From assembly GCA_963169045.1 (NCBI GenBank), contig CAUJDF010000094.1, positions 1 through 64,000 of the forward strand: a stretch of DNA of 64,000 nucleotides, written 5' to 3'. The DNA comes from Myxococcota bacterium. GTDB taxonomy: Bacteria; Myxococcota_A; Bradymonadia; UBA7976; UBA1532. Under the pieces are notes generated by a model. The model saw nothing but the letters and a program-made list of their open reading frames with translations. It made no database searches and was not told the DNA's origin. Shown here piece after piece: positions 28,436 through 37,617 of the stretch. The translations under genes and the position numbers were made by a program. Position 1 is the first letter of the stretch; each line of letters opens with the position of its first letter.

Positions 28436-29605
28436 ATGCGTTTTCCGGTCGTTTTTCTGTTCGCCGCCCTGTTGGCGGCCTGCGGCGCCGCGGATCCCGA
28501 GGCGCCGCCGCCTCCGCCCGAGACGAGCGCGGCGCCCGTCAGCGCGGCGCCCGCGAGCGTCGCCGCCCCCCCGCCGTCGTCGCCCGCGGACCACGGCGCG
28601 GCGCTCTACGCGAAGCTCTGCGCCCTCTGCCACGGCACCGATCGCGAGGGCTACGCCGCCGACAACGCGCCCTCGCTCAAGTCGAGCACGTTCCTCGAGA
28701 CCGCCACCGAGGCCTTCCTGCGGGACGCCATCGTCTTCGGCCGACCCGGCACGGCGATGGCCGGCTACGGCCGTCAGGTCGGCGGTCCCCTCCGGCCGAA
28801 CGACGTGGCCGCGCTCGTCGCGTTCCTCCGCCGCGACGCGCCGCCGCCCGTGGCGCTCCCCCCGGAGTCGATGGCCGGCAACGTCGCGAACGGCAAGGTG
28901 ATCTACGACCGCGAATGCGCCTCGTGCCACGGCACGCAGACGCAGCGCGGCACGGCGGTCCACCTCGCGAACATCCAGCTCCTGGCCTCGGCGCCGCCGG
29001 GCTTCCTGCGCTACGCGCTGGTCCACGGCCGGCCCGGCACGAAGATGGAGCCCTGGGGCGGCAAGCTCGACGCGCGGGCTCAGGACGACGTGCTCGCCTA
29101 CCTGCGCTCGCTGGCGATGCCGGTGCCGACGGCGCCGTCCGGACCGCCGCCGGTCCCGCCGTGGGGTCCGATCGTCATCAACCCCAAGGGCAAGGCGCCG
29201 ACGTTCGACCTGCGCGAGGGCCGGTACGCCTCCGTGGACCAGGTGGGCAAGGCGCTGCAGGCGGGCCGCAAGATGATCATCGTCGACGCCCGCGCGCCTT
29301 CCGACTGGCTGAAGATGCACATCACCGGCTCGCTGCCGCTGCCGTACTACCAGCTCGACCTGGTCGATCGGCTGCCCAACGACGGCACCACGGTGATCGC
29401 CTACTGCGCCTGCCCGCACCACGCGTCGGGCGTCGTCGTCGACGAGCTGCGCAAGCGCGGGTTCAAGAACGCGTACGTCCTCGACGAGGGCGTGTACGCG
29501 TGGCAGCAGAAGGGCTTCCCGGTGGTCGCCGCCGAGGGCTTCGAGAAGTTCCCGTCACCGCCCCACGACCACCACGGCCACGACCACCACGGCCACAAGC
29601 ACTGA
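28436..29605 (+). CDS. Diheme cytochrome c - rhodanese fusion lipoprotein
   Basis: 389 aa. Lipobox LLAAC (Cys16), Pro/Ala linker, two monoheme cytochrome c domains (CALCHGT ~62, CASCHGT ~161) and a rhodanese domain (~265-370) with its active-site Cys in IAYCACPHHASG (~324). The protein ends in a His-rich tail (DHHGHDHHGHKH) likely to bind metal. A periplasmic or surface electron carrier joined to a sulfurtransferase fold is unusual; it could couple persulfide chemistry or metal handling to electron transfer. GGAG precedes the ATG. It sits at the edge of the 30-heme cytochrome locus. Confidence 0.9.
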   Translation: MRFPVVFLFAALLAACGAADPEAPPPPPETSAAPVSAAPASVAAPPPSSPADHGAALYAKLCALCHGTDREGYAADNAPSLKSSTFLETATEAFLRDAIVFGRPGTAMAGYGRQVGGPLRPNDVAALVAFLRRDAPPPVALPPESMAGNVANGKVIYDRECASCHGTQTQRGTAVHLANIQLLASAPPGFLRYALVHGRPGTKMEPWGGKLDARAQDDVLAYLRSLAMPVPTAPSGPPPVPPWGPIVINPKGKAPTFDLREGRYASVDQVGKALQAGRKMIIVDARAPSDWLKMHITGSLPLPYYQLDLVDRLPNDGTTVIAYCACPHHASGVVVDELRKRGFKNAYVLDEGVYAWQQKGFPVVAAEGFEKFPSPPHDHHGHDHHGHKH

Positions 29606-29627: not shown

Positions 29628-30230
29628 TCAGAATTTGATGGGCAGCGGGATGCGGGGCAGCGGATCGGTGATGCGCCGCACCGCCTTCTTGTGGAGCGGC
29701 CGCGCCAGCACCTCGTCGAAGTCCACGGGCTTCGCCGTCCCGTCCATCGAGATGCCCACGACGCGCGCGCCGTTCGTCGCGGGATCCACCCGGATCGACC
29801 GCGCGAGCCGCTGCGGCTCGATGCCCGGCAGGTTCAGGTCGACGAAGACCACATGCGGCCGGAAGCCGGCGATGAGGCGGCCCGCATCGAACAGGTTGTC
29901 GGTGTGCTGGACCTCGTACGCGTCGTCCTGGCTCTCGCGCTGATCGTCGAAGACCGCGTCGAGGATGGCGTCGACCACCTGCGGGTCGTCGTCGACCACC
30001 AGGATGCGTCGCGTGCCGCCGGTCTCGACGCGCTCCTCCCATTGCATGGGGATGCCGTTCGTCCGGCAGAACTGCTCGAGGTCGGCGCGCATGATGCGCC
30101 GGTGCCCACCCGGCGTCTTGTACGCCCGGATACGGCCCTCCTCGATCCAACGGATGATCGTCATGGGCGTGACGCGACAGAAGCGCGCCGCCGAGTGCGT
30201 GGAGAAGACGTCCGGAACCTTTGCCGTCAT
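29628..30230 (-). CDS. HTH - receiver hybrid transcriptional regulator
   Basis: 200 aa. Residues ~7-60 are a MerR/excisionase-type helix-turn-helix (STHSAARFCRVTPMTIIRWI, RAYKTPGGHRRI). Residues ~75-190 are a CheY-like receiver (RRILVVDDDPQVVD, phosphoacceptor Asp in VVFVDLNLPG). The usual KP motif is replaced by RP (VLARPLHKK), so signalling by phosphorylation may be altered. The DNA-binding part is N-terminal, opposite to most response regulators. It is divergent from the electron-transfer operon at 30419 and faces the diheme-rhodanese gene, so it is a good candidate for their regulator. Confidence 0.85.
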   Translation of the reverse strand: MTAKVPDVFSTHSAARFCRVTPMTIIRWIEEGRIRAYKTPGGHRRIMRADLEQFCRTNGIPMQWEERVETGGTRRILVVDDDPQVVDAILDAVFDDQRESQDDAYEVQHTDNLFDAGRLIAGFRPHVVFVDLNLPGIEPQRLARSIRVDPATNGARVVGISMDGTAKPVDFDEVLARPLHKKAVRRITDPLPRIPLPIKF

Positions 30231-30418: not shown

Positions 30419-32038
30419 ATGCGCGACTTTGTGCGACGTTTCGGTTGGGCGGCGACGTGTGCCGTCGTCCTGGGGCTGGGTGGCTGTTCGGCGGAGAAGG
30501 ACGCCGGCGGGAGCTGCGACGCGGACGGCGACTGCGCCCGCGGCGAGATCTGCGCCGACGGCTCGTGCGCCGTGGAGCAGTGCAGCAGCATCAACGACTG
30601 CCCGGGTTCCGGCCGCACCTGCCTCGCCGATCTGCGGCAGTGCTCTCCAAAGGAGTGCGGCGACGCGGCCGCCGCGTGCAGCGGCGAGCGCTCGGTGTGC
30701 GTCGACTCCGGCTCGTTCCGGTTCTCGTGCGTCGCGCCCGGCTCGCTGTCGTGCGGCGGCGACGCCGACTGCGCGAGCTACGGCCCGGGCCTGTCTTGTT
30801 GCGGCGGCACCTGCCAGACGCAGTGCCAGGGGCCGATCAACGAGGACATGGGGCCGCCGCCCGGTGACGCGGGCCCGTCCGACGACATGGGCGCCGGCGA
30901 CGACGCCGGTGGGGACGACGCGGGCCCCGACATGAACGTGTCGCCCACGGGCCGTGCCTGCAGCCCGTGCCAGCGCGACGAGGACTGCGCGTCCCTCGGC
31001 GCGGGCGCCACCTGCACGCCCTTCGGCCAGCAGAACGCCCAGTTCTGTACGCCGGCGTGCGAGCCCGGCCGGGCGGGCCAGTGCCCGTCGGGCTTCACCT
31101 GCGTCCAGGGCCTGAACCAGTGCCTGCCGGCCACCTTCCGCTGCGAGCCGGGCTGCCTGACCGACGGCTGCCCCGACGGCAGCGTGTGCGACGCCGAGAG
31201 CGGCCAGTGCTCGGCGCCGCGCGCGGCGTGCGGCGTGTGCGCCCGCGACGAGGACTGCGCCGGCGACCTGAAGTGCCGCGCGTTCGGCGGGCGCAACCAC
31301 TGCCTCGCCGACTGCGCCGGCGGCCAGTGCGGCGACGGCTTCACGTGCGCCGAGGGCACGTGCCAGCCGGTCAGTGGCCGCTGCGACGCCTGCGGCGGCC
31401 GCTGCGCCGGCGCGACGCCGTTCTGCGTGGCCGAGACGGGCTCGTGCGCCGAGTGCGGCGACCGCACGCCGTGTCCCGACAACAAGGTGTGCAACCTGCA
31501 GACGCACACCTGCGAGGAGCGGATGGGCCCCGCCGGCTGCGTGAACGACGTCGACTGCACCAACAGCCCCGACGGGCGCTTCTGCTTCAGCGGCGAGTGC
31601 GTCCAGTGCCTGCAGGACACCGACTGCGGCCCGGGCCAGGGGTGCGACCAGGCCGCATGGCGGTGCGTCCCCATGCCGTGCCGCGGCGTCGCGTGCCAGG
31701 GCGGCGGCGTCTGCGACAACGCCACCGGCCGCTGCAACCCCGGCTGCAGCAACCGCAACGACTGCGTCGATGCGGTCGCGATGGACTGCAACCCCGTCAC
31801 GGGACAGTGCTACTACGTCAACGGCACGTGCGATCCGGCCGGCCGCGACGCCGTCTGCGCCCCCGGCTCGACCTGCACCCCGAACCTCTTCGATCCGAAC
31901 GCCGCCGGCTCCTGCTCCTGCGAGAAGGAAGACCCGGCGAACCCGCTCTCGCCGGACAAGATCCCCTGCAATCCCGGCGCGATCTGCATCACGCTCTTCC
32001 CCGGTCAGCCTGGCTTCTGCGCCGGCTTCGGCATGTGA
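30419..32038 (+). CDS. Cys-rich surface lipoprotein
   Basis: 539 aa. Signal with lipobox LGLGGC, then dozens of Cys in short CxxDxDC-type repeats (SCDADGDCARGEICADG, CQRDEDCASLGAGATC, CARDEDCAGDLKC), split by an Asp/Pro/Gly linker (~140-178). The repeats resemble disulfide-knot modules common on myxobacterial surfaces; no CXXCH heme motif is present. It overlaps the next gene as GTGA, so it is translationally coupled to the iron-sulfur membrane protein, which argues for a joint role. Function unknown; a surface partner or metal-binding scaffold are possibilities. Confidence 0.85.
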   Translation: MRDFVRRFGWAATCAVVLGLGGCSAEKDAGGSCDADGDCARGEICADGSCAVEQCSSINDCPGSGRTCLADLRQCSPKECGDAAAACSGERSVCVDSGSFRFSCVAPGSLSCGGDADCASYGPGLSCCGGTCQTQCQGPINEDMGPPPGDAGPSDDMGAGDDAGGDDAGPDMNVSPTGRACSPCQRDEDCASLGAGATCTPFGQQNAQFCTPACEPGRAGQCPSGFTCVQGLNQCLPATFRCEPGCLTDGCPDGSVCDAESGQCSAPRAACGVCARDEDCAGDLKCRAFGGRNHCLADCAGGQCGDGFTCAEGTCQPVSGRCDACGGRCAGATPFCVAETGSCAECGDRTPCPDNKVCNLQTHTCEERMGPAGCVNDVDCTNSPDGRFCFSGECVQCLQDTDCGPGQGCDQAAWRCVPMPCRGVACQGGGVCDNATGRCNPGCSNRNDCVDAVAMDCNPVTGQCYYVNGTCDPAGRDAVCAPGSTCTPNLFDPNAAGSCSCEKEDPANPLSPDKIPCNPGAICITLFPGQPGFCAGFGM

Positions 32039-34041
32039 CCGAGCCGGCCCTCGAGCTCAAGAAGGCGAAGAAGGCGCCGCCCAAGAAGGGCGGCAAGGGA
32101 GGGGGCAGCGAGGGACCGACCCCCGTCACGCCCGAGAAGCTCGCCGAGGTTCCGCTCTTCGCGCGGCTCGATGAGGCGCTGCGGGCCCGCCTCGCGCCGC
32201 GCACCACCTGGATCGAGATCGCCCGCGGCGAGACGCTCTTCGACGGCGCGCCGCTGGCCGACGAGGAGTCGCCCGTCTTCGTCGTCGTGAAGGGCGACGT
32301 CGACGTCCGCCGCCAGCGCAAGGGCGCCGCGCTCGAGATCGTCAACTACCTCTCGCCGGGCGAGGCGTACTTCCAGAAGCTCTTCGTCTCGGACGAGACC
32401 GAGCGCCTCGTTCTCACGGCCATGTGCCCGGTGCAAGCGCTCCGCGTCTCGTACCGGGACGTCAACTACGTGCTCAAGAAGGCCGCCGAGTTCAGAGACG
32501 ACTTCAGCGCCGCCATCAAGCACGTCACCGAGCGCCAGACGAGCCGCTTCGACGACCAGTTCCAACGCGAGATCTCGAAGTTCTTCGTCGAGCAGCGCCT
32601 GACCTTCGCGGGACGCGTCAAGGTCAAGCGCATGGACATCTGCATCGAGTGCGACGGCTGCTACGACGCCTGCCGCGATCGTCACGGCACCGACCGGCTC
32701 GGTCCCAGCGAGGTGAAGTACGGGCTCACCGAGATCCCGCAGAACTGCCACAACTGCCTCGTCCCCGAGTGCATGGACAAGTGCAAGTTCGGGCACATCA
32801 CGATCTCCCCCGAAACGAAGGAGATCGTGATCAGCGACAACTGCGTCGGCTGCACCCAATGCTCGCGTGGGTGCAGTTTCGGCGCTATTCGCATGCACTC
32901 GCTCGCTGATCTCGATGTCGCGAAGTACTTCCCGGACCGCAAGCCCGACGCGAAGGGCAAGAGCATCGCCCAGAAGTGCGACAACTGCACCGGCTACCCC
33001 GAACAGGCGTGCATCACCGCCTGTCCCACCGGGGCGCTGTTCCAGATCGACGGCTCGCGCATCTTCGAGTACTGGCAGCAGTTCAACGTCCACCAGACGC
33101 CGGGCCACGGCGCGGTGGCCTCGCCCGAGGCCAACACGCGGCGCATCCGCAACCTGTGGATCGCGTTCACCCTGCTGAACACGCTGCTCCTCGCGTGGGA
33201 GTGCTTCGGCCGCCTGCATTGGCCGGCGCTGACGTTCGCCGAGCTGTTCCACCGCCTGGGCCTCCTGGAGTCAGGCGTCGACCCGGTGGATCCGTTCCGC
33301 GAAGGCGACGCGTTCAGCCACGCGCTCGGCTACGTCGGGTGGGCGTTGCTGGGCGCGACGCAGCTCTACCGCCTCGGCAAGCGCTGGGCGCCGCGCTTCG
33401 GCAGCGTGCCGGCGTGGATGGAGGCGCACATCTATCTCGGCGTCCTCGGCGGCGTGTACGGGTTGTTCCACACGGCGTTCAGCTTCCACGGCCTGATCTC
33501 GGTGGCCGCGTTCTTCACCATGGTCATGGCCATCGCCACCGGCGTGCTCGGGCGCTTCGTGCTCTACCTCGTGCCGCGCAGCCGGGCCGGCGCGCAGCTC
33601 GAGCTCGCCGACCTCGAGGCCCGCATCCGCCAGCTCGACCGCGACATCCAGCACTGCTTCGTCGACCCGCGCGAGGGCGCGACGGTGATGGTCAAGATGG
33701 AGGACCTCGTCGCGCCGCCGCCGGGCAGCGACGCTGATGGAGAGAGGGCGCCGCTCTGGACCGGCCTCGTCCGCCTGCTCGGCGAGGACCGCGCCGAGAA
33801 GAAGAAGCTCGAGACGCTCGCCGCCGAGCTCGACGGCGGCAGCCTCCAGGCGGACCGCGCGAAGGCCCTGCTGCGCCTCATGCGGGAGAAGGCGCGCGCC
33901 GAGCGCTCCATGCGCCGCCACGCGTTCTTCGCCCGATTGCTCAAGCGTTACCGCGTTGTCCATGTCGTCGCGTCGAACATCATGTTCGGCGCGCTGCTGT
34001 TGCACGTCGTCTACTCGCTCATTTATCAGGTGAGCAACTGA
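32035..34041 (+). CDS. Cyclic-nucleotide-binding-like, 4x[4Fe-4S] and membrane b-type redox fusion
   Basis: 668 aa. Basic, Lys/Gly-rich start, then a CRP-like sensor domain (~40-150; PGEAYFQKLFV keeps the GE of the phosphate cassette but the rest is degenerate). Four ferredoxin Cys clusters follow: CIECDGCYDAC (~203), CHNCLVPECMDKC (~238), CVGCTQCSRGC (~270) and CDNCTGYPEQACITACP (~315), the pattern of DmsB/HybA-type electron subunits. From ~374 there are several membrane helices with His in EAHIYLGVLGG, LFHTAFSFHG, VVHVVASN and LLLHVVYS, suitable for b hemes, split by a charged coiled loop (~520-640). Predicted quinone-linked inner-membrane electron hub under allosteric control. GTG start overlaps the preceding stop. 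Confidence 0.88.
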   Translation: MTEPALELKKAKKAPPKKGGKGGGSEGPTPVTPEKLAEVPLFARLDEALRARLAPRTTWIEIARGETLFDGAPLADEESPVFVVVKGDVDVRRQRKGAALEIVNYLSPGEAYFQKLFVSDETERLVLTAMCPVQALRVSYRDVNYVLKKAAEFRDDFSAAIKHVTERQTSRFDDQFQREISKFFVEQRLTFAGRVKVKRMDICIECDGCYDACRDRHGTDRLGPSEVKYGLTEIPQNCHNCLVPECMDKCKFGHITISPETKEIVISDNCVGCTQCSRGCSFGAIRMHSLADLDVAKYFPDRKPDAKGKSIAQKCDNCTGYPEQACITACPTGALFQIDGSRIFEYWQQFNVHQTPGHGAVASPEANTRRIRNLWIAFTLLNTLLLAWECFGRLHWPALTFAELFHRLGLLESGVDPVDPFREGDAFSHALGYVGWALLGATQLYRLGKRWAPRFGSVPAWMEAHIYLGVLGGVYGLFHTAFSFHGLISVAAFFTMVMAIATGVLGRFVLYLVPRSRAGAQLELADLEARIRQLDRDIQHCFVDPREGATVMVKMEDLVAPPPGSDADGERAPLWTGLVRLLGEDRAEKKKLETLAAELDGGSLQADRAKALLRLMREKARAERSMRRHAFFARLLKRYRVVHVVASNIMFGALLLHVVYSLIYQVSN

Positions 34042-34093: not shown

Positions 34094-36313
34094 ATGCGCT
34101 GGCGCTGGACGGCCGTGCTCCTGCTGTGGAGCGTGCTCGGGGGGGTGGCGTGGGCGGCGCCGCGTCCGCTGTCGCAGCCGCATGCGCACCTCGACGACTC
34201 CGATCGGTGCAACTCGTGCCACGTGGCGTTCGGCGGCGTGCCGGCGGAGCGCTGCCTGGGCTGCCACCGCGACATCGACCAGCGCCTGCAGGCCCAGCGG
34301 GGCTTCCACGGCAAGGCCGCCCTGAACCTGCGCTGCAACGATTGCCATCGCGAGCACCTCGGCCGCCAACACGAGCTCACCCCGCTCGACCGCGCCACCT
34401 TCGACCACGACCAGACCGGTTGGCCGCTCCAGGGGGGGCACCGCGGCGTCGAGTGCCGGCGCTGTCACACGGCGAAGCGGCCCGGCACCGGCCGCGACAG
34501 CTACCTGAACCCCGAGAAGACGTGCCGGGGCTGCCATGGCGAGTACCACGGCACGCCCGCCGGCAAGGTCCGGCTCAACGAGTGCGACGCCTGCCACACG
34601 ACCTTCGAGTGGACGAAGCGCCAGGACCCGATGCGCTTCGACCACGAGCGCGAGACGCGCTTTCCCCGCACCGGCAAGCACCTGAAGGTCGAGTGCGAGA
34701 AGTGCCACCTCGACAAGAAGAGCTTCGGGCCCATCCAGGTGGCCGGCTGCGTCACGTGCCACCGCGACCCGCACCCGCCCGGCGCGTTCGGCGCGCGCAT
34801 CTGCGAGGAGTGCCACGTCACGCGCGACTTCAAGGACGTGGCGCTGTTCGACCACGGGAGCACGGGCTGGCCGCTCAAGGGGAAGCACCGAGAGCAGAAG
34901 TGCGCGGACTGCCACGAGTTTCCGCGCTGGAAGCCGCGCACGAGCGAGTGCGCCGGCTGCCACGAGGACGTGCATCGCGGTCAGTTCCGCGGCGTCTCGT
35001 GCGGCCGCTGCCACGAGGAGTCCTCGTGGACGAAGCTCTCGTTCGACCACGACGCGATGAGCCGCTTCCCGCTGAAGGGCCAGCACCGTAAGGTCGACTG
35101 CGGGAAGTGCCACAAGGACGGCCACTACAAGCCCATCGACCCCGCGTGCAAGAACTGCCATGCGGGCGCCAATCCCCACGGCACCACCTTTGGCGACACG
35201 CCGTGCTCCAACTGCCACGCGCCGACCGGCTGGCTCGACACGCGCTTCGACCACGGTGTCACCGGCTTTCCGCTCGCAGGCAAGCACGTCGAGCAGCCCT
35301 GCTTCCGCTGCCATCCCAATGGCACCGAGGTCGAGGACGACACCATCGCCGAGTGCGTCTTCTGCCACCGTGACGTGCACGCCGGGCAGTTCCAGGGCGC
35401 GTCGTGCGATCGTTGCCATGCCGGCTTCGAGCGGTGGCGCATCCCGTTCTTCGACCACACGCTGAGCCGCTTCCAGCTGGTGGGCAAGCACATCGAGGTG
35501 CGCTGCGAGGCCTGCCACAAGCAGGGCCACTACCGCCCCATCGACACCGCATGCGGGAACTGCCATCTCAACTTCCACGACGGGCAGTTCGCGAAGCCAT
35601 GCGACGAGTGCCACAGCCCCCACGGCTGGACGCTGGTCCAGTTCGACCACGACCGGCAGAGCGAGTTCGCGCTGTACGGGGAGCACCGCGGGCTGGACTG
35701 CAAGAAGTGCCACGTCGACAACGACTACAAGGGCCTCCCGTTCGACTGCGCCGGCTGCCACGTGGACGAGCACAAGGGCCGGCGCGGACCCGCCTGCGAT
35801 CGCTGCCACACGGCGGCCGACTGGTCGACGAACCAGGCGCGCAACCACGACTTCGGCGCCTTCACGCTCGGCGGGGTGCACGACCTCCTGGCCTGCGAGA
35901 CCTGCCACGGCCCCGAGCGGCGCCGGGAGCTCGCCGGCACCGGGCCGGAGTGCATCAACTGCCACCGCGACCCGCACTTCGGCAGCCTCGGCCCGCTGTG
36001 CCTCGACTGCCACACGCAGCAGCATTTCCTGCCGAGCACGTTCCTGCACGTCGAGACGGGCTTCCGGCTCTCGGGCGCCCACCGCTTCGTCGAGTGCCGC
36101 GACTGCCACCCCGGACGCGTCTACGGCGGCCTGCCGAGCACCTGCGACTTCTGCCACACCGACTCGTTCCAGCAGACGGCGGCACGGCCCGACTGCGACC
36201 ATACGCAGCACTGCCCGGGCGGCCTGGCGACGTGCCACACGTGCCACACGACGCAGGCGTTCGTGCCGGCGCGTCCCGGCACCAACTGCGGGCCGTGCGA
36301 GAGCAGCCGGTGA
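34094..36313 (+). CDS. Thirty-heme periplasmic c-type cytochrome built of triheme modules
   Basis: 739 aa. Signal peptide MRWRWTAVLLLWSVLGGVAWA, then 30 CXXCH motifs by direct count. After an opening set of three, nine modules of ~65-80 residues each start with a pattern like FDHxxTxFPLxGKHxxxxCxxCH and contain exactly three hemes, with conserved FDH and GKH histidines as likely distal ligands. This is the arrangement of fused cytochrome c7 domains, as in the Geobacter 12-heme GSU1996 nanowire. The last residues, CGPCESSR, look like a lost heme site. Predicted electron wire across the periplasm. It overlaps the beta-barrel gene as GTGA. Confidence 0.93.
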   Translation: MRWRWTAVLLLWSVLGGVAWAAPRPLSQPHAHLDDSDRCNSCHVAFGGVPAERCLGCHRDIDQRLQAQRGFHGKAALNLRCNDCHREHLGRQHELTPLDRATFDHDQTGWPLQGGHRGVECRRCHTAKRPGTGRDSYLNPEKTCRGCHGEYHGTPAGKVRLNECDACHTTFEWTKRQDPMRFDHERETRFPRTGKHLKVECEKCHLDKKSFGPIQVAGCVTCHRDPHPPGAFGARICEECHVTRDFKDVALFDHGSTGWPLKGKHREQKCADCHEFPRWKPRTSECAGCHEDVHRGQFRGVSCGRCHEESSWTKLSFDHDAMSRFPLKGQHRKVDCGKCHKDGHYKPIDPACKNCHAGANPHGTTFGDTPCSNCHAPTGWLDTRFDHGVTGFPLAGKHVEQPCFRCHPNGTEVEDDTIAECVFCHRDVHAGQFQGASCDRCHAGFERWRIPFFDHTLSRFQLVGKHIEVRCEACHKQGHYRPIDTACGNCHLNFHDGQFAKPCDECHSPHGWTLVQFDHDRQSEFALYGEHRGLDCKKCHVDNDYKGLPFDCAGCHVDEHKGRRGPACDRCHTAADWSTNQARNHDFGAFTLGGVHDLLACETCHGPERRRELAGTGPECINCHRDPHFGSLGPLCLDCHTQQHFLPSTFLHVETGFRLSGAHRFVECRDCHPGRVYGGLPSTCDFCHTDSFQQTAARPDCDHTQHCPGGLATCHTCHTTQAFVPARPGTNCGPCESSR

Positions 36314-37617
36314 AGCGGGCGCTCGTCGCGCTGCTGTTGGCGCTGCCGGCCCACGCCCGCGAGGCGGAGCTGGACGGGCGCATCTCCGTGCGCGGCCTGT
36401 ACTCGCGGGACACCGCCGGGGGCCCGGCGGTCGGCATGAGCTTCCTCGAGACCGACGCCCGGGCGGAGCGCCTCACCGACGGCGGCCTTCGGCTCGTGCT
36501 CGACGCGACGTTCCTGCTCGACATCACCGAGGCGAACGAAAGGCGCTTCGGGCGCACCGAGTCGCTGGACCAGGTGCGTCAGCTCTACGCCGAGCAGCCG
36601 GACCTGCTGCACGGGCTGGACGTGAGCCTCGGACGCAAGCTCGTGCTCGAGGCGGGCCACGGCTGGGTCGACGGCGTGGATCTCGCGCTGCGTTTCGACG
36701 AGCGACGGGCGACGCTGGGCGCCTACGGGGGCCTCTCACCGGACCGATTCGACTACGCGCTCACCACGGACTACCAGGCGGCGGGGGTGTACGGGACGCT
36801 CCATCGTGAAGGCTTCGACGGGGCGCTGGCCTTCAATACGGTGCTCTTCCAGGGCGCGCTCGACCGCCAGTGGGCCTTCAACCGCCTGCACTACCGGATT
36901 GCGCCGGGTTTGTTCGTCGCCAGCTACCTCGTCGTGGACTTCATCGAGATGCCCGCGGTGACGACACTGCTTGCGAGCGTCGATTACACGCCGGTACCGC
37001 CGCTCAACATATCCCTGAACTTCAGCCGCTACGCCGTCGAGCAGTATCGCAATACCACCATCTATCATGACGTCGTCGAGCCGAATCAGGCCCTCCTCAT
37101 CGGTGATGAGGTGCTGGACCTGGTCTACAACCGGGTGCGTCTGTCTGCTTCCGTCCGCTTCTGGGGCCACTACTACCACTATCAGACCGTCGAGCTCAAA
37201 GCGCGGACCCAGGACGATCGCGAGGCCTGGCTCTACACCCTGGGTGTGCGTGATGAGGACTTCCTCGGGTTCGGGACGCTCGTGGACCTGAGCGCGTCCT
37301 TCCGCAACAACTTCCAATCGGACTCGTACCTGGTTGCGCTGAACGTGGATCACGACCTCGGCGGTGCCTTCAGCGTGGAGGGGCGGGCGATCTGGTACGA
37401 CGGTCGCACCATCGGGCGCACGACCGACCGTGGGCGCATCTTCGACGAAGCGCAGCGGATCGTGCTGGTGGGAGGGGCGCTCTACTGGCGGCCGCTGAAG
37501 GCCCACCAGTTCGACGTGGACTACGACGGGGTGCTCGAGACCGAGCTGCAGGACGTGCGGAACGAAGACAGCCTGTTCATCCACACGTTCATGGGGCGAT
37601 ACAGCCTGCTCTTCTGA
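36310..37617 (+). CDS. Outer-membrane beta-barrel protein coupled to the 30-heme cytochrome
   Basis: 435 aa. GTG start gives a short signal (VKRALVALLLALPAHA). The rest alternates hydrophobic and polar residues with many aromatic girdles (RVRLSASVRFWGHYYHYQTV, FQSDSYLVALNVDHDLGGAF) and ends in ...RYSLLF, a C-terminal Phe typical of barrel insertion. No known porin family recognised. The 4-nt overlap with the cytochrome gene implies matched synthesis, as expected for a porin-cytochrome conduit. Base composition dips towards AT in 36800-37300, compared with neighbours. It ends 3 nt before the convergent frr gene. Confidence 0.82.
   Translation: MKRALVALLLALPAHAREAELDGRISVRGLYSRDTAGGPAVGMSFLETDARAERLTDGGLRLVLDATFLLDITEANERRFGRTESLDQVRQLYAEQPDLLHGLDVSLGRKLVLEAGHGWVDGVDLALRFDERRATLGAYGGLSPDRFDYALTTDYQAAGVYGTLHREGFDGALAFNTVLFQGALDRQWAFNRLHYRIAPGLFVASYLVVDFIEMPAVTTLLASVDYTPVPPLNISLNFSRYAVEQYRNTTIYHDVVEPNQALLIGDEVLDLVYNRVRLSASVRFWGHYYHYQTVELKARTQDDREAWLYTLGVRDEDFLGFGTLVDLSASFRNNFQSDSYLVALNVDHDLGGAFSVEGRAIWYDGRTIGRTTDRGRIFDEAQRIVLVGGALYWRPLKAHQFDVDYDGVLETELQDVRNEDSLFIHTFMGRYSLLF

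Follow-up and report, generated by a model that had tools for sequence, protein, structure and literature searches.

Known outer-membrane electron conduits are not alike in the route by which electrons reach the periplasm. One inner-membrane inlet is a quinol dehydrogenase of the CymA type, and control is generally thought to be transcriptional. In the MtrAB complex of Shewanella and the porin-cytochrome complexes of Geobacter, a barrel and a multiheme c-type cytochrome are encoded together and are served by an inner-membrane electron carrier (drawn in part from PMC11475568). The locus considered here lies in a 64,000-nucleotide stretch of DNA (the window) from a Myxococcota bacterium, contig CAUJDF010000094.1 (C94 of the 9.0-Mb draft genome G000). 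At 32035-34041 on the plus strand it encodes a 668-residue fusion protein that combines the fold of a cyclic-nucleotide-binding domain (CNBD), four [4Fe-4S] sites and a di-heme cytochrome b-like membrane part. The evidence is computational: the modules present, the residues (Cys and His) that never vary, the heme motifs, the operon structure and co-occurrence among genomes. It makes it probable that this protein is the inner-membrane inlet of an electron conduit running from the cytoplasm to the cell surface. The operon, with genes for a 30-heme cytochrome and a predicted outer-membrane barrel, was absent from the original prediction made on this DNA and is the strongest evidence for the role of the fusion protein.

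Three modules in one chain

The original prediction had read a sensor-like N-terminus, four Cys sets and His-bearing membrane helices in a single chain; all three are present, at the positions it gave. The β-roll of the sensor-like part is encoded at 32122-32538 (residues ~30-168) and the Cys sets at 32641-33024 (residues 203-330). Membrane helices 1-4 (33124-33567, residues 364-511) are separated from helix 5 (33955-34035, residues 641-667) by a basic helical insert that is predicted to be cytoplasmic (33568-33954, residues 512-640). The open reading frame (ORF) has a GTG start that overlaps the stop codon of an upstream gene for a Cys-rich protein as GTGA. Relatives as distant as 30-31% identity also keep the three modules in a single chain. 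The principal alignment (A1) consists of 14 sequences, the window protein and 13 others that are 31-62% identical to it; the truncated L037 is omitted from A1 and present in A2. Relatives of G000 that are assigned to a group are uncultured Myxococcales/Myxococcota or Deltaproteobacteria. Chance resemblance or a mis-called frame is ruled out by the invariance of 16 Cys and 4 His down to ~31% identity. A 1024-residue ORF that starts at 30967 was rejected as the real gene: it traverses the Cys-rich gene in a different reading frame, and the homologous part begins near residue 8.

Each of the four Cys sets (C203/206/209/213, C238/241/246/250, C270/273/276/280 and C315/318/326/330) is intact in 14 of 14 members of A1. 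The window protein has 16 of the 16 Cys of the four-by-four pattern of four-[4Fe-4S] ferredoxin subunits (HycB/PsrB/DmsB type), Fer4_7 scores above its cut-off, and the best solved matches of this part are 7qv7_A (E 3e-10) and 7z0s_B, so that four clusters would be expected here. The 16-Cys pattern is common to the four-cluster subunits of the HycB, FHL subunit 2 and PsrB type; unlike these, the window module is fused to a CNBD fold and to a membrane cytochrome of its own, and its operon contains no molybdenum or hydrogenase partner.

The AlphaFold2 model has five helices in the membrane part (364-395, 426-441, 458-482, 487-511 and 609-667). H465 and H479 on helix 3 and H643 and H657 on helix 5 form two H-x13-H pairs, on two helices that run the same way, with the spacing for two stacked hemes; they are the expected ligands of two stacked b-hemes. 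The four His are present in 14 of 14 members of A1 and, together with Gly503, Gly506 and Pro514, are the only residues that never vary across all 19 diverged membrane parts. (That set, 17-55% identical to the window protein, includes stand-alone proteins of Sphingobium (L071) and Emticicia (L070), both of which adjoin multiheme cytochrome genes.) The pattern is that of a bis-His di-heme cytochrome b, with both heme sites presumably filled. Two bis-His pairs also occur in cytochromes of the ferric reductase/NOX type, in the Ni-hydrogenase cytochrome b and in DUF4405 proteins. NOX cytochromes carry a flavin domain, in place of which the window protein has cytoplasmic Fe-S clusters. Matches to DUF4405, Ferric_reduct and Ni_hydr_CYTB stay below the family cut-offs in the window protein and in relatives scanned singly, and a profile of the membrane part found only coiled-coil matches in the PDB (E 0.7-0.9). 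The charges of the loops (K+R, D+E) are acidic at residues 396-425 (2, 6) and basic at 445-458 (4, 0) and 510-640 (26, 21), which would suit a chain of five helices with its N-terminus in the cytoplasm and its C-terminus in the periplasm.

The 30-heme cytochrome, the barrel and their conservation

The fusion gene is separated by 52 bases from a gene (34094-36313, plus strand) for a 739-residue c-type cytochrome with 30 CxxCH motifs and what appears by eye to be a signal peptide. That gene is overlapped by 4 bases by the next (36310-37617, plus strand), which encodes a predicted outer-membrane β-barrel of 435 residues with a C-terminal Phe. The cytochrome matches PF14522 (Cytochrome_C7) at 109.8 bits, and its heme motifs (30 of 30) align in register in all 15 sequences compared. 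That count omits L141, which is split into two ORFs, the divergent L142, and L030 and L143, which run off their contigs. At L141 (2797-5201, minus strand, genome G025) the two ORFs have 15 CxxCH each, representing either a real split or an assembly error. Cytochrome c assembly genes are present in G000 (three PF01578 matches). The barrel model (mean predicted local distance difference test, pLDDT, 76.6; predicted template-modelling score 0.68) has 22 strands by DSSP, and its fold matches are porins (VIA Z up to 18.6). No PDB sequence match was found for the cytochrome at E ≤ 0.001, and none for the barrel. The juxtaposition of a barrel gene with a multiheme cytochrome gene is the arrangement of porin-cytochrome systems, and the pair is also found in family f2.

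The gene order Cys-rich protein, fusion protein, multiheme cytochrome, barrel is shared by the window and 8 of the 8 same-family loci whose contigs reach far enough (L028, L029, L038, L032, L039, L031, L033 and L034), with the exception that the Cys-rich gene is inverted in L034; the contig of L030 ends inside the cytochrome gene. All four genes also follow in order at L084 of family f4, and in genome G022 the set is divided between two contigs, with the Cys-rich gene and the first half of the fusion gene on one (L107) and its second half, the cytochrome and the barrel on the other (L108). At L033 (5516-7604) ~2 kb lie between the fusion and the cytochrome genes; there is almost no such spacing at the other f1 loci. 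In family f2 the fusion gene is at one locus and the cytochrome-barrel pair is on a different contig in 3 of 3 genomes, with the fusion gene followed, at L036 and L040, by ORFs that read by eye as ribose-phosphate pyrophosphokinase, ribosomal protein L25 and peptidyl-tRNA hydrolase. That the fusion gene and the pair are unlinked in f2 and yet retained together argues for a shared function.

Co-occurrence points in the same direction. Among 57 genomes of the class, the fusion protein is found in 16, the cytochrome in 19 and the barrel in 17; 15 genomes have both the fusion protein and the barrel, 1 the fusion protein only, 2 the barrel only and 39 neither (Fisher p 9e-11, a value that takes genomes as independent and ignores shared ancestry). 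In the fusion-only genome (G045), the contig ends inside the cytochrome gene. One of the two barrel-only genomes is G023, in which the contig bearing cytochrome and barrel ends in a 107-residue ORF that matches the fusion protein (L140), a fragment at the contig edge.

If the fusion protein is the inlet of a conduit, its CNBD-fold and four-cluster half would lie in the cytoplasm, where a soluble donor would supply it with electrons (ferredoxin, or NAD(P)H by way of a flavoprotein). The four clusters would hand these electrons to the heme pair, with H465/H643 in the inner leaflet and H479/H657 in the outer leaflet, and thus across the inner membrane. The 30-heme cytochrome, in contact with the fusion protein, would accept them in the periplasm, and the barrel would let electrons cross the outer membrane, toward a partner outside the cell or from one. 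In its likely role the fusion protein resembles the inner-membrane end of a porin-cytochrome conduit; membership of a named family is not claimed, because the PDB sequence searches turned up no kinship to solved conduits and the cytochrome b cut-offs are not reached.

The Cys-rich gene (30419-32038, plus strand) is the first of the putative operon and encodes 539 residues with a lipobox-like N-terminus (..VLGLGGC-SAEK, read by eye). It has only a sub-threshold TIGR04201 match, and a homologue lies near the Fe-S/cytochrome b gene in 13 of 13 loci, on the opposite strand in L034. Divergent from the operon is a gene (29628-30230, minus strand) for a helix-turn-helix protein of the excisionase/BldC type with a receiver domain; a homologue stands beside the operon in 10 of 13 loci, making this protein a candidate regulator. 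A scan for promoters and terminators gave no reading of weight. Farther upstream in the window (28436-29605, plus strand), one gene encodes two cytochrome c domains joined to a rhodanese domain, with a tail rich in His. Near the f2 cytochrome-barrel pair, an ORF at L137 (673-2142, plus strand) looks by eye like a mechanosensitive channel with a canonical cyclic-nucleotide cassette.

The sensor-fold domain and the wider family

Structure prediction, which the original prediction had called for, makes the N-terminal domain a CRP/FNR-type β-roll. Residues 30-165 are modelled by AlphaFold2 at a pLDDT of ~80-90, and the best VIA match (Z 14.5; root-mean-square deviation 3.2; 136 aligned residues) is to CRP/FNR-family chains, with many ties. 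PF00027 gives 15.0 bits in the window protein, below its cut-off of 27.5. It matches 9 of 14 orthologues at E ≤ 0.01, and L034 is above the cut-off (31.5 bits). Two other readings of the N-terminus were discarded: it is not a transcription factor, having no helix-turn-helix, and not an encapsulin, having no shell part (the family 2B encapsulin model NF041163 scores 27.4 bits over residues 30-170 against a cut-off of 400, and only the CNBD-like part is common). The CRP/FNR fold is clear, yet the fold alone shows no function, because FNR, NtcA and the cAMP-independent regulatory subunits of kinetoplastid PKA, all of them in the hit lists, are CRP-fold members that answer to other ligands.

In a CNBD, the Glu and Arg of the phosphate-binding cassette hold the ribose and the phosphate. 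The cassette of the window protein had been described as keeping its Gly-Glu and being otherwise degenerate. The degeneracy stands (GEAYFQKLFVSDETERL) and a Gly-Glu is indeed present (residues 109-110), but it aligns with the turn before the cassette and not with the ligand-binding Glu; the window protein reads GEAYFQKLFVSDETERLVLTA, with Phe-Gln at the Gly-Glu position of the cassette. In A1 the Glu position is occupied by Q in 11 sequences, E in 2 (L033 and L034) and H in 1, and the residue before it is Phe, Val, Ile or Asn, not Gly. R124, a possible stand-in for the cassette Arg, varies (R/T/A/K/S/Q/E). The window domain has the β-roll in common with the CNBDs of the CRP/FNR family and differs from them in that it lacks the cassette Glu and Arg and a DNA-binding domain, and in that it sits in an electron-transfer chain.

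Searching 377 genomes of the phylum with A1 yields matches in 42 (E ≤ 1e-25). A tree of the Fe-S module, in which long branches lead to L022 and L066 and 8 of the 18 inner branches stay open, shows three clades, with that of the window separate from a second (L056-L058, L060, L061, L063-L065 and L068: Fe-S and cytochrome b parts with a degenerate N-terminus) and a third (L025-L027, L066, L067 and L071). Loci of the second-clade type (L074, L076, L079, L080, L081, L088 and L104) have cytochromes with 18-28 CxxCH nearby. An ORF with at least 4 CxxCH is found at 22 of 33 wider homologue loci and in 2 of 20 control stretches drawn from contigs carrying such loci (p 5.6e-5, with several of the 33 stretches cut by contig ends). 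The 33 loci omit most of the main clade (L028-L040 and L090) and keep its f4 member L084; they also omit the short contigs L067, L086, L087 and L107-L109 and the plasmid loci L070 and L071. On the Emticicia plasmid (L070, 5836-12660), the cytochrome b homologue, a flavoprotein and two cytochromes (23 and at least 37 CxxCH) stand in a row downstream of ccsA.

NAD(P)H-type flavoproteins are fused to the module in L066 and L071 and adjacent to it in L073, L074 and L098; the one adjoining the gene in L073 and L074 is a Pyr_redox flavoprotein with a Fer4 domain of its own. In L066 (1435-3969, minus strand) and on a Sphingobium plasmid (L071, 4186-6660, plus strand, followed by a cytochrome b gene and a multiheme cytochrome gene), a single chain carries an NAD(P)H-type flavoprotein, two CNBDs (118 and 105 bits) and the four-cluster Fe-S module. 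In L025 and L027 a pair of CNBDs (104 and 101 bits) accompanies the Fe-S and membrane parts. The cassettes of such relatives conform to G-x-x-(F/V/L)GE-[IVMF]..[LI]..R-x-A or come near it (both copies in L066 and L071, the first in L025 and L026, the second in L067). In L025, L026 and L027 the first copy is near-canonical, and the second, which adjoins the Fe-S module, is degenerate. The window protein retains only the position adjoining the Fe-S module; the simplest reading of these sequences would be that its lineage has retained only the degenerate copy.

These comparisons bear on the proposal of a switch within the chain, in which a cyclic nucleotide or other small molecule bound at the N-terminal domain would control electron flow. 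The CNBD fold is supported and has been retained with the Fe-S module across three clades, relatives have cassettes of canonical form (FGE[IVM]..L..R.A), and CRP-fold domains for other ligands are among the fold matches. Against this stand the sub-threshold PF00027 score, the Gln that replaces the cassette Glu in 11 of 14 sequences, the unconserved Arg and the survival of just the position that is degenerate in L025, L026 and L027, and we regard gating of the window protein as doubtful. Gating by cAMP or cGMP in particular appears unlikely, since the cassette Gly-Glu has become Phe-Gln and the Arg is not conserved. The original suggestion that a cyclic nucleotide directly gates electron flow here is thus not sustained, although it came with the caution that the ligand might not be cAMP/cGMP. 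Most likely, the domain serves in the window lineage as an assembly or docking part, or binds a ligand other than cAMP/cGMP. The gating idea would fit L066, L071, L025 and L027 better, with CNBDs of 101-118 bits on the same Fe-S module, and the single chains of L066 and L071 are better candidates than the window protein for cyclic-nucleotide-gated electron transfer. A wider family of second-messenger-gated conduits, in which cAMP or cGMP bound to two CNBDs on a four-cluster relay feeding a di-heme membrane cytochrome and multiheme c-cytochromes would allosterically switch outward electrons and of which the window member, its pocket changed, would be ungated or answer to another ligand, is a tentative idea, rather less likely than not.

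Direction of flow and comparison with known conduits

The anatomy of a cytoplasm-to-surface conduit is symmetrical for direction. The barrel and the 30-heme cytochrome might as well collect outside electrons (for example from Fe(II)) for delivery by the fusion protein to the cytoplasm, and G000 has no flavoprotein of the clade-II type at E ≤ 1e-15, with none linked to the operon, so that a donor flavoprotein of known type is missing. The joining of relatives to NAD(P)H-type flavoproteins suggests that electrons enter from the cytoplasm, though such enzymes could also run backwards; outward flow is the more likely direction and inward uptake has a small share of the probability. A similarly small share goes to a quinol-linked module, in which the di-heme part would work on the quinone pool as do cytochromes b of the FdnI/HydC type and the Fe-S domain would reduce a cytoplasmic partner. 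Weak matches lend it some color: Ni_hydr_CYTB in the Sphingobium relative (21.7 bits; cut-off 30.1) and DUF4405 in 7 of 14 orthologues. The 19 membrane parts have only two Gly and one Pro invariant besides the four His, so no conserved quinone-site residues are seen, and the fixed partnership with a 30-heme cytochrome also speaks against such a module.

Several observations besides the missing flavoprotein weigh against a conduit with the fusion protein as its inlet. The barrel, at 435 residues, is possibly too narrow for a 30-heme protein to thread, MtrB aligns to it as one among many porins (Z 15.6; root-mean-square deviation 6.9; 358 aligned residues), and the operon encodes no surface c-cytochrome. 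In the AlphaFold2 model the Fe-S part has a pLDDT below 50, and the VIA fold-match lists for the fusion protein cover residues 30-201 only, not the membrane fold. At 11 of the 33 wider homologue loci the stretch fetched holds no heme-rich ORF. G050 has a divergent multiheme cytochrome without fusion protein or barrel, G025 (65% complete) has the barrel and the split cytochrome and no fusion protein, and the Fisher p values treat as independent genomes that share ancestry. Even so, the inlet reading is the one that we favor.

Searches of the open-licence PMC literature turned up no paper that connects CNBDs with multiheme conduits; PMC5585712, in which both subjects occur, concerns a GAF domain in the part consulted. 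In the conserved unit of these uncultured Myxococcota, one 30-heme cytochrome and a barrel would be linked to Fe-S clusters in the cytoplasm, adding an unstudied group to the candidate surface-electron-exchange bacteria, and a CNBD on the relay raises the question whether a small ligand might directly switch electron flow through a membrane wire. Like MtrAB and the Geobacter conduits, the window operon places barrel and multiheme cytochrome genes together and would provide an inner-membrane electron carrier. It differs from them in having no surface c-cytochrome gene, in a smaller barrel (22 strands in the model) and in concentrating 30 hemes in one cytochrome. The probable inlet also sets it apart: in place of a CymA-type quinol dehydrogenase, there is a fusion of CNBD fold, four [4Fe-4S] sites and cytochrome b.

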